Assembly (NCBI GenBank): GCA_002102555.1
Contig: MCFL01000081.1
Coordinates: forward strand, 41,070-105,069
From: Catenaria anguillulae PL171
Lineage: Eukaryota; Blastocladiomycota; Blastocladiomycetes; Blastocladiales; Catenariaceae
DNA: 64,000 nt
Direction of reading: 5' to 3'
Shown: one piece after another, positions 30,849 through 40,148 of the stretch
Layout of the letters: every line of letters begins with the position of its first letter
Position numbering within the stretch: the first letter of the stretch is position 1
Notes under the pieces: generated by a model
Databases searched by the model: none
Told to the model about the DNA's origin: nothing
Seen by the model: the letters and a program-made list of their open reading frames with translations, nothing else
Program-made: the position numbers and the translations under genes

Positions 30849-32558
30849 ATGCCGTCTCCCGCCTCCACCTTCTCTGTCGAGGACCTCTCGCTGCACGTCC
30901 TGTCGGTGCTCAACGCCAGCCCGACGTCGACGCTCGAGTCCACCGCGACGCTGACCTACCCCGGCACTTCCACTGTGATCGACTCTGCCGCCCTGCACGG
31001 CATCCTGCTGTCGCTCGAGTCCAAGGAAATGGTTTCCTTCACGGCCGTCGAGCACGACCGCTGGACCTTGACGCCCGAGGGCGCCGAAATTGCCGCCTCT
31101 GGATCGCACGAGGCCAAGGTGTTTGCCGCTGTGCCTGCCGGTGACGAGGGCATTTCCATTGCCGACCTGAGCGCCAAGGTTGGCGACGCCGTGGCAAAGA
31201 TTGGACAGGGCAAGGCTTTTAAAAACAAGTGGATTGGCAAGGCAAAGACCGGAAATTTGGTCAGGTTGGTCAAGAGCATTCAGGACGTCACCCAGGACGA
31301 CTTGAAGGTGGTGCAGGCAACCGCCAGCCATTCGGACCCCAAGGTGCTTGTTGAGCTCAAGAAGCGCAAGCTGTGCGACAAGGAGTACGTACACTGATGT
31401 TTCTACGAAAAAAGGAATGCGTGCATTTGGGCTCGTGGCTGACCCATGTCTCTCCTGTTCACAATCGACCAGGAAGGTGACCCACTATAAGCTCGCCAAG
31501 GGCCCAAAGTTTGCCACGACGCTCGTCAAGCAAGCAACTGATTTGACGGTCGACATGCTCTTGTCGGGTGCCTGGAAGAACCTCGACTTCAAAAAGTACA
31601 ACTTTGATGCGCTCGGCCAAGAGCCCGAGGGCGGTCACTTGCACCCGCTCATGAAGGTCCGCGAAGAGTTCAGGCAAATCTTCTTTGAGATGGGGTCCGT
31701 TGCTTTCACATGGATTGTATTGCTTGCGCGTACAGTTTATCTGACACTGGATGTGCATGTATTCACAGTTTCGAGGAAATGCCCACCAACCGCTACGTCG
31801 AGTCGTCGTTCTGGAACTTTGATGCCCTCTTCCAACCGCAACAGCACCCTGCCCGCGACATGCACGACACCTTCTTCCTGTCGTCGCCCGCGACTGCGGA
31901 CCGGTACCCAAAGGCGGTCATGGAGCAAGTCAAACAAGTTCACTCGCACGGCGGATACGGCTCGATCGGCTACGGATACGACTGGAAGGAAGCCGAGGCC
32001 GAAAAGCTGCTGCTGCGCACGCACACGACTGCCGTGTCTTCCAACATGCTCTACAAGCTCGCCACGCAACCTGGCGGGTTCACCCCCGCAAAGTACTTTT
32101 CTATTGACCGCGTGTTCCGCAACGAGACCGTGGACGCAACGCACTTGGCCGAGTTCCATCAGGTCGAGGGCGTGATTGCCGACCGCGGGTTGACGCTCGG
32201 CGACTTGATTGGATTCATCAATGTGTTCTGCCAAAAGATGGGCGTCACAAACATTCGCTTCAAGCCCGCGTACAACCCGTACACCGAGCCCAGTTTGGAG
32301 ATCTTCTCGTACCATCAAGGCCTGGGTAAGTGGGTCGAGATTGGTAACTCGGGCATGTTCCGCCCAGAGATGTTGGGTCCCTTGGGCTTGCCCGAGGACG
32401 TGCGTGTGATTGCCTGGGGGTTGAGTTTGGAGCGGCCCACCATGATCAAGTACGGCATTGACAACATTCGCGAGTTGTTGGGCCACAAGTGCGATTTGGA
32501 GATGATTCAGAACAACCCGATTTGCCGGTTGGACAAGAAGATGGGCCGCGAGAACTAA
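30849..32558 (+). CDS. FRS2: Cytosolic phenylalanine-tRNA ligase, alpha (catalytic) subunit
   Basis: Exons 30849-31384, 31473-31694 and 31769-32558 give exactly 515 residues, the usual length. The enzyme charges tRNA-Phe with phenylalanine as an alpha2-beta2 tetramer in the cytosol. The N-terminal 200 residues form the winged-helix tRNA-binding region. The class II catalytic core follows, with [19 protein letters not shown] (motif 1 region), [17 protein letters not shown] (motif 2) and [19 protein letters not shown] (motif 3). The introns are 88 and 74 nt. The gene is intact. The P-like transposon is inserted 329 bp downstream of its stop codon, so the 3' UTR or terminator may be affected. 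A long open frame on the opposite strand is a shadow of the biased codon use. Confidence 0.96.
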
Positions 32559-32880
32559 ATCATCTCCCCCCGCCCCAGTAAGTGTTGGCGTGGCCCGATT
32601 TGGGTTGGTGGTTAGACTCTGGTTGGTCCTCGGGTCGTATAGTCTCCCTTTTGTTGTATTTGTTTGTCTTGATTTGCATCCAATATGTTTCCTGCTTGCG
32701 TACTTATTCTTTTCGCTTGTCACCGCCGGGCAATTCATCGGCTTGAGACACGCACAGAATCTCTGGTTCCAATTGAAGCACTCGACGACTATGTAAATGA
32801 AGGACGAGACCTGTAACGACCAGAGTCGTAAACGCTCGCTCGGAGATGATTGGTGTACAAGTCCATTGGGCATTCGCAGG

Positions 32881-32887
32881 CAGATAC
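32881..32887 (+). repeat. Target-site duplication, left copy
   Basis: CAGATAC directly precedes the left terminal inverted repeat and is repeated directly after the right one (38693-38699). Confidence 0.75.
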
Positions 32888-33461
32888 CAGGGGAACTAAA
32901 AGGATGGGGTGGGCGAGGTAAGGAAGGCGTAGTCGACTGGCCGACTATGAGGAATGCCCGTTTGCTAAAAGGGCAGGGCAGCCGTCTAGAATCAATGGTT
33001 TATCCGCTGCTCGTCTATCATTGGTCGATGGTGAGCGCTTGTTCGTGCGGCACAGTGAGCAAACCGACGTTGTTGGAAAACGCGTCGAGAACCTGGCGGC
33101 TGACCGAAAACAGTCGGAATCAGCGAGTGCTTCCAAAGAATTTCTACAGAGTGAGCATGATCCTTTCGTTGGTTGTTCTCGGCCAGCGGGCTTTCGTGAG
33201 ACACGGCCGGCCGGCGCCGCCGCACTGGTCGCCAACATACCACAACTTGCGTGGCATATCATTGTAATATCAAATGACGATGGAAATGGCATTGTCTTGC
33301 ACCTGATTACGCACCCGCCTCCTCGCCTCCTCCCCATCATTCACCATCCGACTCACACCAAACCGGCCCCGCCGACCAACACCCAATCCACACCGCCCAC
33401 ATCCTGCTCATCATCATGACGGCACCCTCATCCAAGCCTGCCACCTCAATCACCATCGACG
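32888..33461 (+). repeat. Left terminal inverted repeat, with promoter and first codons of the accessory gene
   Basis: Begins CAGGGGAACT and runs 574 bp to CATCGACG, where similarity to the right arm ends at codon 16 of the accessory gene. It contains the complete upstream region and codons 1-15. Confidence 0.92.
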
Positions 33462-35163
33462 ACCCTCTCCAACTGCTTGCTGCACATTTCGACCTCGCAT
33501 GCCACATCCCAAAACTCGTCGAGTATCTATTGCCGCATGACGAGAACGCAAGCATGTTGGGCCATCTGCCACAGACCGAATCAGAGCTCTTTCGTCGAAT
33601 GGACCACGAAGACGAGCATATTCGAGCCTGCGACGATGACCCAATCACTGCGCATGTCGTCAAGACAGCTCTGTTTGACGATTATCCAGAGGAAGTCGAG
33701 GAAGCGATTCGCAGCATGGATTTGGACCTCACCGTCGACAAACTTCTAGCTCGGATTGCTTCCCCTCAGGCTGGTTCGCGGTTTTTCAATTTCAAGGCAG
33801 CGACTGACCGTGACATTGACCAAACGCTGGCGATTTATGCACAGGTCAGTCGACCCTCGCTTCGTCCTCGACATCCAAGCCTGCACTTTCGCCAGCGACG
33901 TCGGGAGGCGATGTTCCAACTGTGGCTCAATCCCACAACTCTCCACCCTCGCTCAAGCGGTCAGCTCCCCACCCGCGCGACTCGCAAAAGCGAACCCGCA
34001 CTCAACCGCAAACCGCAGATGCTAAAGCCCTCGTATTCACAGCGGCCTTCCAAAACCTTCCCCTAATTGACACTGTTCTTCGCGAGAATGACAAGTCCAA
34101 GCTCCACATCACCCCTGTGTACAATGCCCTTCGACTTGTCCTCGAATCGCTCGATTCGGCCCAGGTGGCTGACTTACAACAGCTACTCGTGGATATCGTG
34201 GTCCCCATCCATGTCAAGTACCTGGACGACATGACCAAGTTCAAGCACTTGAAGGCAGCATTGCGCAACATGCACTCTTTGATCGAGGACCACCTCCACG
34301 TTGATCAAGTGCAAGACCAAACCTACATTCAAGGTGTGATTGACGCCGCCGATGTGCGCGCAGTCAAGCGGATGTGGATCCACCCAGGTCAAGTTCGGTA
34401 CTCTTCGCAAGTCTACCCACCTTATTCCCACATTACCCTGGCCTTTGTCGAGTCTGTGTTTGAGTACTTGTGGCACCCAAGCTCGTGGCAAGGCATTTAC
34501 CCTGACATTGCCCAAATTGCTGGTACTGTGGACGTTGTTTACGCATCTGACATTGGCACAGATTGGACCACATTGACTCGCCCAGGTTTCGCTCACATCA
34601 CGATTCCTCGCATGGCGTACTTGTCCGGGTTTCTCTTGTCTGCGGTGTACAAGCGTGTGTACAAGTACAAGGCTCCAGATCACGAGGCATTTCGACTCAT
34701 GGTGCTGTCAATGTCATTGGCCGGTAACGAGCTTGCTCAAGCCAGGGATTGGTTTGTGTATTCCGAGATTTCCTCATTGACCGAGGGTGGACTTATCTAC
34801 CCAAAGCGGTTTGTGATTGCCTACTTGATTTGGTTGGATTCGGCGCTCACAAAGGTTCTCGAGGCAAGTGGAAGGGACAAGAAGCTTGAGCGTTCGATGT
34901 GGGCTAACCGTCGGGTGACAGATCTACTTGCATCCAGTCAGCATCAGCGGGTGTGGCAGCTGTTTGTCCTCCAAGCTCAAGGGTATGGGAGTGCAAAAAT
35001 CTTTCCAGCGTCATTGTGGGACCGGTTTGCGCAGCTTTTTCGCACGCCATACCTTACGTTGCGAGTCGGCGAGCGATCGTTGCGACAAACACAGTCGGAA
35101 ATCAAGGCAAATTCTGACCGTGCCAACACTCGTCAGATGCTCAAGTCTCTCGATTCCGTCTAG
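33416..35163 (+). CDS. Accessory protein of the P-like element, unknown function
   Basis: Exon 1 33416-33844, then an intron most simply placed at 33845-33957, then exon 2 to 35163, giving 544 residues. Residues 1-15 (MTAPSSKPATSITID) are identical to those of the transposase because both are encoded in the inverted repeats; the rest is unrelated to it. After an acidic helical N-terminal half (DDYPEEVEEAIRSMDLDL) comes a basic, Ser/Pro-rich patch (KRSAPHPRDSQKRTR) that could be a nuclear signal. A 370-residue region follows that looks globular and mainly helical (LQQLLVDIVVPIHVKYLDD; FVIAYLIWLDSALTKVLEAS). No family is recognised. The intron acceptor is uncertain because coding-like sequence also lies within the proposed intron. 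Since the element is whole, this protein probably acts with the transposase in the nucleus. Confidence 0.7.
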
Positions 35164-35329
35164 TAGTCTTAGATGGTGCGTGTGTGTGTTTGTGTGCGAT
35201 CGTTCCTGTTTTATGTGAATAATCCTTGGTTTTCATTGGTTCGTTTTTGTGTCTGTATCGTTGGTTGATGAAATTTCTTTCAGCGCCAAGGCACTCAAGC
35301 AATGGGACACAATTCATCGCAGTGTATAA

Positions 35330-38164
35330 TTAAAGCACATCTGAAAGCATCTTATCCAACATTTCTTTAACGTCCACTTTTTCCTTGTCCGTCAAATCGT
35401 CAGCAAGCAACAACTTTGACAGCTCATATATCAGGCGCTCGTCCTCCTCATCATTTACCATGTCCATCAACGCCTCCCACTCCTCATCGCCACTTTCGGT
35501 TCCAGATGCACGGGCCGGCATCTGATCCGACTCAACGTCAACGCTGACGGGCGGCACCAAATCTGACGCAACCACCGCAGCAGCATCAATTGTTGTTTGG
35601 GCAGGCGCTGTACTTGCTTGGGCTGTACCCCCTTGGGTATCTGCTTGAACACCGCCCATGTTCAACTCTGTAATCGGATCGTAGTTGGTCTTGAGCTGCG
35701 ACATGAATGAGCGGAGATGACCGATGAGTTGGTACGAAACGGCGACGAGCTTCATTTGGCGAGCAGTGACTTTGGTGCTGGAGCGGCCAAGCGCACGAGC
35801 CAGAGCAAAGTAGCTTTCGAGACAGTTGGTGGAAAACGAACGAGGGTAAACCCGCATAAACGGGAACCGTGTGAGCAATAAGCGAGTGGCGGCGGTGAAG
35901 TTGCTGATGGTGAGCTTCAAGTCGTCGAACGATTCCATGGCAATAAAGTGTGATTTGACGGTCTTAATGGCCGCTGCTCGATCTTTAGCCGTGAGTGTCT
36001 GATTGGCGCGAATCGCGGCCACCTCGGCATCTACCCGCACCTTCCAATCCTCAAAGTACTCAAGCACGCCCTGCAACTGCTTTAACCGAGTATCCGCACC
36101 ACCCTCCGTGATCGAATCCTTGGTAAATGGCCGAGCATCCGTCATGATGGAGTAGAAAGTATCCACCTGGCGAATGAACGACGCAGTCCCTTTGGCGTCA
36201 GGGTGCGTGCAATAATGCTCCAAGGCATGGGCAGTCTTTCGACACAATACTGCGCGAGCAAGAGGGACACGCATTTTCGCCCATGCATCTGGACTGCGTG
36301 CATCCTTGGTGAGGTGCTGGACAAGGCGAAGACCTTCGTTCTGCTCCGACTGCTTGTACAGGTCGTCAATCGCGTGCCACGAAATGCGAGTGGTACCGTT
36401 GATAAGGACTTCGTGGTTAATCATTGCGTTGCGAATCCGCTTGAGGAGATGTGGGACGTCTTGAATCAAGATGGGACATGGAAGATTGGATGGCCAGGAT
36501 TCCGGGTCGCCAAGCTGTTTGAATCCTGATCGGTTGACCGTTCCACTGGAAAAGCGAAATAAGTAGGCGTGGATTGTGAATGGAGATAAACATATAGCCT
36601 TCATACCCATCTGCTCCGAGGCACAGCACATTCAACCCACATGCATCCAATACCACAACTGCTCGCTGGATCATGGACACGAACTCTGGCGTGTTCATGT
36701 CTCGCGTGTCAAAATGTGCAATCGGAATCGCCATACTTGCACCCAAGGACACAAACATCAACTGCAGCGTGTGCTTGGCCGGAACCTCTTCGCTTTCTCG
36801 ATCCCCAGTATGCACACCTGGACCATGGTTGATGAGCCCAGTCACCTTGAGTGTTGCACGGACTACAACTACCTCTGGCACATCTTGCACCTCATCAGCA
36901 ACAAGGATCCCACAACTTAGCAGGTCAAGCAGCTCCTCGTCAGTTTGCTCTTTGAACTTGGCACGCAACTCAGGCAGATGTAAATGCAGGTCGTCCACCA
37001 TCCGCTTGATGTGTCCGGTGTCAAGACCAGGCTCCATCGCATACTTTTTGCGATACTTGCGCGTGGTGGATTTTGAGGGAAACGTGAAACCAATCGAGCG
37101 CATCAACCGGCAACACATTGAGCTAATGGACGATAATGCGAGGGAGAAGCGAAGTACATTGACCGGCCACTGGCGGCCACTGCCACGGTCAGACACACGA
37201 AGGAGAAGGTCGTAAAACCATTCTTTGAAGAGAGGATGGTGATCGAGATGGGCAATGAATTTCGGGTGGGCGGCAGTCAAGTATCTGGATCAACAGGAGT
37301 TAGATAATGAGAATCCAGTGTGAAGTTGTCAATCCACAGCAGGCAGATGGACATACTCTTGCAGTGTTGCATTCCGCAAGATTTCCTCCTTTTCCTTGGC
37401 CGCTGCGAGCTTGTTCAAATCTGTGTGATGTGGGAGGAGACATGATGTAAGCCACAGCAAGGGGTGGTGTCAAGAACTGGTAATTCCGGACCATTGTTAC
37501 CATCAGTTGGGCGCTGCAAGTCCTGTCGGATCACACGCTGTCCCATCGTGTTTGCAAGAGATTTGCACGCCGTGCACATCCAGCCATCCTTTGTCGCCAC
37601 CACCCGCCCGCAGCCCAAGTCCCGAAACGTCGCATCGTACACAACGCCCGCGTGCGTAATAGGGGCAGTGCACACAATGACTCGTTGGTCACCAGTCTTC
37701 CAATCGGAAAACATGTTATGATAGGATTTGTGAAATGAGGCACGAAGCGACTCATAGTGGGGGCTGTTGACGAAAACACCGGTGCAAACTGGCGAGCGCT
37801 CCACGGCGCGAAGGACGACAGGGAGGATTTCCTTGATTTGATGAGGCGTGTACGGATTATTGAATTGGGCGATACTGGAAGCAGTGAATAGGAGGGCCGG
37901 GTCTACAGGGCGTCCGAGGTAGTAGATTGTGATGTTGTACTTCTTGTGGGCGATTGAGTCGCGCTTGACGATGACCGACCGAGCAGAGGGCAGCCCAGGG
38001 TGATTTGGATCCTTGACGTCCAGGAAAATGGTGTTGTTGTGGTGGCCGATTGACCAAATGCAAGTCGAGTTCTTGGATGAATCGGACGCAGTTTCGACGA
38101 TGGCCCCGAAGTCGACGCCGTCGATGGTGATTGAGGTGGCAGGCTTGGATGAGGGTGCCGTCAT
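35330..38164 (-). CDS. P-superfamily-like transposase
   Basis: Four exons on the minus strand, 38164-37501, 37420-37357, 37284-36607 and 36545-35330, sum to 2622 nt and an uninterrupted 873 residues. The catalytic region follows the P-element/THAP9 plan: GILVADEVQDVPEVVVV with the first acid, HFDTRD, then LGADGGTVNRSGF with the second Asp, ILIQDVPHLLKRIRNAMIN (the conserved D-x2-HLLK-x-IRN box), LKLTISNF and the late CLESYFALARALGRS with the Glu. No canonical THAP finger is seen; a CTACK motif near residue 200 may bind zinc. Codons 1-15 are shared with the accessory gene through the terminal repeat. The enzyme would bind the repeats and move the element. No disabling change was found. Confidence 0.82.
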
Positions 38165-38692
38165 GATGATGAGCAGGATGTGGGCGGTGTGGATTGGGTG
38201 TTGGTCGGCGGGGCCGGTTTGGTGTGAGTCGGATGGTGAATGATGGGGAGGAGGCGAGGAGGCGGGTGCGTAATCAGGTGCAAGACAATGCCATTTCCAT
38301 CGTCATTTGATATTACAATGATATGCCACGCAAGTTGTGGTATGTTGGCGACCAGTGCGGCGGCGCCGGCCGGCCGTGTCTCACGAAAGCCCGCTGGCCG
38401 AGAACAACCAACGAAAGGATCATGCTCACTCTGTAGAAATTCTTTGGAAGCACTCGCTGATTCCGACTGTTTTCGGTCAGCCGCCAGGTTCTCGACGCGT
38501 TTTCCAACAACGTCGGTTTGCTCACTGTGCCGCACGAACAAGCGCTCACCATCGACCAATGATAGACGAGCAGCGGATAAACCATTGATTCTAGACGGCT
38601 GCCCTGCCCTTTTAGCAAACGGGCATTCCTCATAGTCGGCCAGTCGACTACGCCTTCCTTACCTCGCCCACCCCATCCTTTTAGTTCCCCTG
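38119..38692 (-). repeat. Right terminal inverted repeat, with promoter and first codons of the transposase
   Basis: Mirror image of 32888-33461; the two arms match base for base in the stretches compared, and all open frames within them give identical translations. It ends CCCCTG next to the target duplication CAGATAC. Confidence 0.92.
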
Positions 38693-38699
38693 CAGATAC
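38693..38699 (+). repeat. Target-site duplication, right copy
   Basis: CAGATAC, identical to 32881-32887 and directly adjacent to the right end of the element. Confidence 0.75.
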
Positions 38700-39045
38700 A
38701 CGTGGGCCACTGGTGACAGATCGATGGCCTTGACTTTGACAAGATGATCCGTTGGCATGGGCACTGTCCGGCTCGCTATGCTCCATTCCGACCGTTTCAG
38801 TTTCTTCCTGGCAGTAAAGCTCACCGCAGCCTTTCTGTCATCAGGATTTGAAGCACAGGTCGGCCCTCCCTAGCGTTGGGGACACACACGCTTTACAGAC
38901 CACGAATTGACACAAAATGCAGAGCCCGTCTATATTCTTTTTTGCCTTGTCACAACGCAATTCGACTCCATCAACAACTTCTGGGCTTACAACTTGAAAA
39001 CAGAAACAAACGGCCTCAACGCAACCAGGTAATGTCCATCACACC
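38700..39045. other. Intergenic region, 3' flank of the lectin gene
   Basis: Spacer between the transposon and the 3' end of the lectin gene; no gene seen. Before insertion, FRS2 and the lectin gene were convergent neighbours about 670 bp apart. Confidence 0.5.
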
Positions 39046-40148
39046 TCACAATTGCGGCTCCTCAGGCATCTTCTTCCACCACAGTACATGTGTCGCGTTT
39101 TGCGCAGAAATCCTCAACCCAGTCACGCGCGTCAATGTGGCAACCGATGTTTCGTTCTTGAGCACCCTGGAAATGCCGCCAGCGCCGCCGCCAATGCTTT
39201 CGGTGGGCGCCAACCGGCCTTGGGTACGGGCCAACTTTTCCAACCCGGCGCGCTCCCACCAATACGGAGCGTACGTGCGGCCGTCGCGGCCGACGAAATA
39301 CCAGTAGTTGAACGAGTGGGAACCTGCGAGGGGCCTGCAATCTTGCAGCGTGATGGGCGCTCCGTTCTTGAGGGCGTTGGCTGTAGAGGGAGCGGGTAAT
39401 GGTCAAAAAAATCCTTTGCTGGAGTTGCAAGTGCACAGGAGCCAGTCACATACGGGTAACGCCCAAACAGTACTCGGGTTGCGTCATGGAACGGAGCAAG
39501 TAGCGAGCGAGGCCTTCTCGTTTCGCGTAGTGGTGGAGCACAAGTTCGAACCTTTGGGCTATCGTGTAGTTGCTGGAGAGTACGATGTTCCAAACAATGC
39601 GTTGTCAGTCTCACAGCCACGGCGGCCAACGTGAACCGGTGGTAACGCACCATTCCCAAAGACGGATTCGCACGCCTTCGGCGAAATTCTGAACGAGGCA
39701 TGGACGTCAGTGGGAGACAACGCCGGCAGCGAATGAATAAGCGGCAGGTACCCCTCCAGGGACGTCGAGGCACAAGGGGGCAACATCCGAGCGATATCCG
39801 ATGCGATACATCATGTCGTATCCGTAGCTACCGAAGTTAACGAAGGCGGCACTCTGACGTCGACAGGGCCCATGCAATCGTTAGAAGATCTGTTCCAATC
39901 CTGTAATGGTAAGGGGACGAAGGGCATACCTGGTCCTCGGCCCAGGCGTTGCAGTTCCACATATGCACGCCGGCTTGATTCCATCTTAGTGAGCCGTTGT
40001 CGCGCGCCATGCACCTCGGGGAGCTCATAGCCCCGGATCGGAGCACGAACTCGAAATCGGTTGGCCACTTGGCGACACCGTCTCCCTGGGTATTTGCGTT
40101 GCCGGCGAACAGAGCCAGAATGAGAACGATGAGGAGAGTCGGCTTCAT
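39046..40148 (-). CDS. Secreted ricin-B-like (R-type, beta-trefoil) lectin
   Basis: Five exons on the minus strand: 40148-39930, 39853-39752, 39688-39651, 39572-39454 and 39380-39046, in phase for 270 residues. The signal peptide is TLLIVLILALFAGNANT. The following 170 residues carry trefoil-type units: RCMARDNGSLRW, PLCLDVPGG, GVRIRLWECN (the Q/L-W-x-C strand), EYCLGV and PITLQDCRP. Such domains bind galactose- or mannose-type sugars on glycoproteins or glycolipids. The C-terminal tail of about 90 residues is not a trefoil and contains a WWERAGLEKLAR helix. No enzyme domain is attached, so a sugar-binding extracellular role is most likely. The introns are 73-78 nt. A TATATGG box about 80 bp upstream suits the start at 40148. 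Confidence 0.78.

Follow-up and report, generated by a model that had tools for sequence, protein, structure and literature searches.

P elements are a model for transposase action, and those described in the sources consulted have one transposase chain. In the parts of the literature available to us, the Drosophila P element is reported with terminal inverted repeats (TIRs) of 31 bp, a target-site duplication (TSD) of 8 bp, a THAP domain, and a C-terminal domain in the same chain (PMC7776569). Galileo, another member of the P superfamily, is described in the available portions of its sources as having long TIRs of varying length, extended by internal and ORF sequence, mostly 7-bp TSDs, and one transposase ORF, the end of which was recruited in a nearly complete copy (PMC4168063, PMC3573991); its transposase has a THAP domain (title of PMC3688188). 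The accessible sections on the maize element MuDR describe two genes, each adjoining one of two near-identical TIRs (PMC2563033, PMC8224964), and state that insertion requires expression of both mudrA and mudrB (PMC2563033). RAG-like transposons, according to the part of the source at hand, carry a tail-to-tail gene pair between their TIRs (RAG1L and RAG2L), encoding a catalytic protein and a less conserved partner (PMC7204232). An earlier note on the DNA analysed here had stated that known P elements have short repeats, which the long TIRs of Galileo contradict (PMC4168063), and that it knew of no described element of the present design; as far as these partial sources go, that view has to yield to the recruitment of ORF sequence by Galileo TIRs (PMC4168063) and to the two genes lying by the TIRs of MuDR (PMC2563033, PMC8224964).

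The DNA in question is a stretch of 64,000 nucleotides (hereafter the window) from the blastocladiomycete fungus Catenaria anguillulae PL171. It contains a 5,805-bp element, E1, at positions 32888-38692, with the exact ends CAGGGGAACT...AGTTCCCCTG. A search for inverted repeats over 32000-39500 (seed 12, minimum 20 nt) reported a single one, made of two 574-nt arms that are 100% complementary (32888-33461 with 38119-38692). The features of the locus are as follows.

32881 to 32887: left target-site duplication CAGATAC, 7 bp
32888 to 33461, plus strand: left arm, 574 bp, starting CAGGGGAACTAAAAGG; includes the upstream region of gene 1, its ATG and 15 codons
32888 to 32916, plus strand: terminal 29 bp of the left arm, 93% identity to element E2
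33416 to 33460, plus strand: first 15 codons of gene 1, MTAPSSKPATSITID
33416 to 33773, plus strand: gene 1 exon 1, exact match to the deposited protein
33845 to 35163, plus strand: gene 1 exon 2, C-terminal part with conserved G-aromatic and G.L motifs
35164 to 35329: gap between the convergent stop codons of genes 1 and 2, 166 bp
35330 to 36545, minus strand: gene 2 exon 4, with the GTP-binding insertion (PF21788), the C-terminal part of RNase H, an acidic tail and the stop
36607 to 37284, minus strand: gene 2 exon 3, N-terminal part of RNase H (PF21787)
37357 to 37420, minus strand: gene 2 exon 2, from our own splice model
37501 to 38164, minus strand: gene 2 exon 1, without Pfam match or detected THAP domain
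38120 to 38164, minus strand: first 15 codons of gene 2, identical to those of gene 1
38119 to 38692, minus strand: right arm, 574 bp, identical to the left arm; includes the upstream region of gene 2, its ATG and 15 codons
38664 to 38692, minus strand: terminal 29 bp of the right arm, same 29 bp as the left end
38693 to 38699: right target-site duplication CAGATAC, 7 bp

E1 is a clean and real insertion, since the 7-bp TSD CAGATAC borders it on either side and CAGATAC occurs just once at a paralogous site on contig C335 that is empty of any element. Its target was an LTR-like repeat, the second copy of which, on C335, is 84% alike. The surroundings of E1 (window 32812-32887 and 38693-38897) form this repeat, TGTAACG...TTTACA, with GACC on either flank; it is probably a solo LTR, to which the copy at L056 on C335 is related.

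Gene 2 is predicted to encode 873 aa in four exons, in agreement with the four-exon model obtained in parallel for a second element, E2, and its ATG (38164) is the first of its open frame. Pfam searches returned PF21787 (E = 9e-13) and PF21788 (E = 6e-12), corresponding to the P-type RNase H fold with a GTP-binding insertion, and a profile of the E1 and E2 proteins matched the fly P transposase (6p5a_A, E = 1e-4). In a MAFFT alignment read by eye, D373, D468 and E712 of E1 gene 2 fall on acidic positions of the fly protein, which we take to be its catalytic residues, and all three are also present in E2 and E3. Its RNase H and GTP-binding core and the alignment at these three positions identify gene 2 as coding for a transposase of the P superfamily. 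No THAP domain was matched by Pfam in residues 1-365 at an E of 1, and no Mutator domain in the protein of either gene. A search with residues 1-760 gave no deposited match at E 0.001, even to the protein itself, among the best 7,999 candidates scored, and no relatives were confirmed in viral contigs. In E1, E2 and a third family, E3, gene 2 ends in an acidic tail right after the C-terminal segment of RNase H, and in a fourth, E4, the last gene-2 reading frame has an acidic run at its end after the same segment. Inspection by eye and by motif showed no GGL in the stretches of gene 2 that were compared for E1-E5 (partial for E4 and E5).

The model of gene 1 (33416-33773 and 33845-35163, 558 aa) agrees exactly with the deposited protein BCR44DRAFT_61398, including the start ATG at 33416; a 35-nt intron drawn by eye was dropped in favour of the deposited 71-nt intron, which fits exactly. 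The two genes lie tail to tail, with 166 bp between their stop codons. For gene 1, neither a Pfam match above the cut-off nor a credible PDB match was obtained, two structure predictions reached mean pLDDT values of 38.9 and 38.2, and searches for relatives returned two proteins each, all from Catenaria, among the best 7,999 and 8,000 candidates scored. Since the same convergent pair is found in four divergent families of this genome (E1-E4), we rejected the idea that gene 1 is a captured passenger. Between E1 and E2, pS is 0.716 and pN 0.351 over 552 codons of gene 1, and pS 0.705 and pN 0.281 over 846 codons of gene 2; with dS above 2, synonymous changes approach saturation, which leaves the direction of the ratio as its only reliable aspect, and by that direction, for this one pair of sequences, both genes are constrained. 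A further deposited protein, BCR44DRAFT_329741 at L018 on C155, fuses other sequence with a gene-1 fragment (89% at the DNA level).

Set beside the described systems, E1 and E2 recall Galileo in their arms of 574 and 269 bp and their 7-bp TSD; they share with the Drosophila P element and THAP9 an RNase H with a GTP-binding insertion and the aligned acidic positions. E1 differs from Galileo in having two genes and in that the recruited piece carries start codons, whereas in Galileo, as far as the available parts of the sources describe it, this piece is the end of the ORF. It differs from the Drosophila P element in its 574-bp arms, its 7-bp TSD and its second gene, and in that gene 2 has neither a THAP match nor a recognised C-terminal domain. 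MuDR likewise has two element genes, each beside a TIR; these are in convergent order, and the TIRs stop before the coding regions. Unlike the P-type E1 with its 7-bp TSD, MuDR belongs to the Mutator-type transposase superfamily and has a 9-bp TSD. The tail-to-tail gene pair is also that of RAG-like transposons, which differ from E1 in their 5-bp TSD, RAG1-type catalytic protein and kelch partner.

Searches of the same genome revealed at least 13 further element places besides the window, and all counts given here are lower bounds. Both genes are present in 8 of the 14 places (the window on C438, and C379, C334, C415, C57, C274, C444 and C135), and the remaining six (C224, C124, C155, C93, C1 and C419) do not show both. 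The E1 arm recurs in at least two places, both at 72%, and the full arm pair is found only in E1. The copy of E2 on C379 is complete, with 5,564 bp, 269-bp identical arms and the TSD CCGGAAA; a second copy, on C334, has both genes and is interrupted by an insert of LTR type, about 10 kb long and with direct repeats of 670 bp, and C419 holds a redundant or allelic partial copy of it that runs off the contig. E3, on C415, spans 9,228 bp with the TSD CTTCACT. E4 is represented by copies of about 8 kb on C57, C274, C444 and C135 that are about 99% alike and have imperfect arms (blocks at 77-84%); the copy on C57 has the TSD GCAATGC, that on C135 has no matching TSD, and those on C274 and C444 extend to the edge of the contig or of the stretch. 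Integrity of E4 was scored on blocks drawn from C57, of which four of five were counted (g2_mid, drawn in a wrong frame with four stops in the reference, was excluded): both gene-1 exons are unbroken in three of the four copies, and both tested gene-2 stretches in one (C57, their source), the others having shifts or stops. C224 and C124 represent one relic type, consisting of a 72% left arm, gene 1 up to element nt 2003 and a 12-bp right end, with many frameshifts. C155 and C93 hold gene-1 fragments, and on C1 only gene 2 was detected.

In E1, both ATGs (33416 on the plus strand, 38164 on the minus strand) lie within the arms, which end one base past codon 15, so that the two proteins have MTAPSSKPATSITID in common and then continue with DP and GV, respectively. 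The earlier note was therefore right that identical arms run past both start codons and give the genes a common upstream region and first 15 codons, after which the proteins diverge. It was also right in calling the element a P-like transposon with its transposase on the minus strand, as the Pfam matches and 6p5a_A indicate, and in treating the accessory gene as a gene of the element, given the pair in E1-E4 and pN below pS in both genes between E1 and E2. On the points that it had listed for checking, both genes occur in the eight places listed above, and a common 15-codon start on both genes is found only in E1. Two of the findings that it had named as speaking against its proposal were made, namely a copy lacking the second gene (the C224/C124 deletion relic has no gene 2) and arms that end before the ATGs (E2 and E4, by assigned starts).

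The families differ clearly in this respect. The 269-bp arms of E2 are 100% identical, and its assigned ATGs lie at nt 385 and 477, that is, 116 and 208 nt past the last arm base; with these starts, its two proteins begin differently. E2 gene 1 has a possible alternative start, an in-frame ATG at nt 247 inside the arm; this ATG is not in the reading frame of E2 gene 2. In E4 the gene-1 ATG is 615 nt from the end, the ATG assigned to gene 2 is at about nt 1651, and the arms end before the assigned start codons. In E3, where gene 1 has its ATG at nt 2955, the best end repeat measures 86 bp at 83%. An MTAPSS-type start is found only in E1 and in the C224/C124 relic, and on both genes only in E1; in the relic, 3 of the 15 residues of the gene-1 start are changed relative to E1, and the other end has been lost. 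Because the relic carries it with these changes, the fused gene-1 start is older than the split between E1 and the relic, and because the arms of E2 and E4 stop upstream of their assigned ATGs, the shared 15-codon start results from a lengthening of the arms in the E1 lineage and is neither a conserved tag nor part of a family plan. E2 gene 2 begins MKPCLVLVVDDVDFGAIVE and E1 gene 2 begins MTAPSSKPATSITIDGVDFGAIVE, a resemblance between predicted starts which hints that the E1 leader derives from the gene-2 side; in the DNA comparison for the source side of the inner arm, 30 of 500 and 128 of 500 shuffles were as good.

We consider it probable that, as a whole, E1 is a complete and probably recent cut-and-paste transposon of the P superfamily with two genes, that the gene 1 protein is a partner of the transposase, and that the common leader arose by arm growth. 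Beyond the terminal 29 bp, the arms of E1 and E2 have blocks in common, including ATTGGTCGATGGTGAGC and ACGCGTCGA..ACCTGG, and these could be candidate promoter or transposase sites. The arms would carry transposase binding sites and a promoter, each gene being read inward from its own end. The transposase would cut and paste the element with a 7-bp stagger, and the gene 1 protein would act as its partner, without which the DNA would not be moved or inserted. Repair after excision may have transferred a copy of one inner flank to the opposite end, lengthening the E1 arms past both start codons; both E1 proteins would tolerate the same short leader, and further repair or conversion between the arms would keep them identical. 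Growth of the arms past the start codons would fit repair after excision, by analogy with what has been discussed for Galileo, whose TIRs have taken in pieces of the ORF (PMC4168063, PMC3573991).

A sharper form of this explanation, compatible with it and regarded by us as a tentative possibility, is that gene 1 supplies the C-terminal domain of the single-chain P transposase, so that each end would contribute one of the two proteins of the working enzyme. The transposase would then be divided over two convergent genes, each driven by its own copy of the terminal repeat, and, on the same tentative footing, functional enzyme would be made only by elements that retain the two ends together with the two genes. 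In the fly protein, the C-terminal domain comes after the RNase H domain, past a linker, and since chain A of 6p5a ends after RNase H and chain B is the C-terminal domain, this point appears as a natural break in the P transposase. The acidic tail of gene 2 and the lack of a GGL motif in the stretches compared agree with such a division. In the four families aligned, gene 1 has an invariant G before an aromatic residue and a later invariant G.L, in the order of AGY ... GGLIKP in fly P. Of 23 invariant gene-1 columns, 7 are matched by the fly domain, against a mean of 3.7 for its shuffles, and 8 of 150 shuffles did equally well; with E2 gene 1 alone, 14 of 1000 shuffles were as good. However, this pattern was spotted post hoc, and 399 of 5000 shuffles of the fly domain outscored the real one against the gene-1 profile. 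Single comparisons of E1, E3 and E4 gene 1 were matched by 111, 135 and 515 per 1000 shuffles, the whole-column score by 41 of 150, and for E1 and E3 gene 1 the motifs are left unpaired in the best local alignment. With hhalign, P was 0.022 in one run and 0.066 in a second, where 3 of 200 column shuffles were as good. The absence of a Pfam match over the cut-off or a credible PDB match for gene 1, and the low pLDDT of its predictions, also count against the idea. Gene 1 resembles the C-terminal domain of the fly P transposase only weakly, and with tests so mixed a split transposase is a possibility.

Other readings of the locus are less probable. Accessory element proteins that act as repressors or antisilencing factors are known in general, and gene 1, having no recognised domain, might be such a regulator and stand outside the transposition machinery; we regard this as unlikely, given that the gene is kept in four families and constrained between E1 and E2, and nothing specific favours a regulatory role. 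The proposal of the earlier note, that the arms were selected to run past the ATGs as a built-in means of producing both proteins at equal levels with a common N-terminal tag, appears improbable. It would account for the identity of the E1 arms and for the altered leader retained in the relic, but E2 and E4 keep both genes without a common leader by their assigned starts, E3 has only short end repeats, and the leader stands on both genes in a single intact element. Finally, redundant contigs do occur in this assembly (C224/C124 and C334/C419), and the long inverted repeat might in principle be an assembly artefact or a chance palindrome. This is very unlikely, and we reject an artefact, which the earlier note had allowed for: the flanks differ between the two sides of E1, the TSD CAGATAC is exact, the paralogous site on C335 is empty, and the separate element E2 has the same plan.

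On the two-gene P-superfamily reading that we favour, a conserved partner gene looks to be the new feature. Among the matches listed in our literature searches (for example, the best 15 of 117 and 10 of 132, with the subscription literature mostly outside their coverage), no title or abstract opening pointed to a P-superfamily element with two genes or to the Catenaria elements described here. A fungal branch with a second gene in its complete copies would point to a second protein in P-type transposition, comparable to RAG2L beside RAG1L and to mudrB beside mudrA. If gene 1 does carry the missing C-terminal domain, these elements would offer mechanistic studies a P transposase that is naturally in two parts. 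E1 further illustrates how arm growth can swap the promoter and start of a gene in a single step.

The ends of the elements were scored at the window and 13 loci for a 16-nt end match and a 7-bp TSD. Four places (the window, L017, L047 and L049) gave 16/16 and 7/7; L055 (C135) had 16/16 ends with a TSD of 1/7, L014/L015 had 12/16 ends with a TSD of 6/7, and the pair at L016 had 14/16 with a TSD of 3/7, one of its ends lying within the LTR-type insert. No end pair was found at L048 and L050-L054. The TSD is thus 7 bp in E1, E2, E3 and one E4 copy, and the elements end in CAGGGG(A/T)ACT.

Several minor observations concern individual copies. The 670-bp direct repeats of C334 lie at L051 4413-5081 and L016 2557-3226, about 10 kb apart in the E2 copy, and CAGGGGAACTCAGTGG at L016 1797, 14/16 like the E2 end, sits within the LTR-type insert. 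E3 has, upstream of gene 1, a long reading frame (L047 2007-3062) that is transposase-like by eye and perhaps belongs to a nested element. Between the genes of E4 there are tandem units of about 92 bp (L049 6372-7340), with an open frame rich in proline and alanine. The sequences at L014 3457-5551 and L015 5286-7369 are the deletion derivative in which the 12-bp right terminus directly follows gene 1 sequence; relative to E1, they contain many short insertions, several of which resemble small local duplications.
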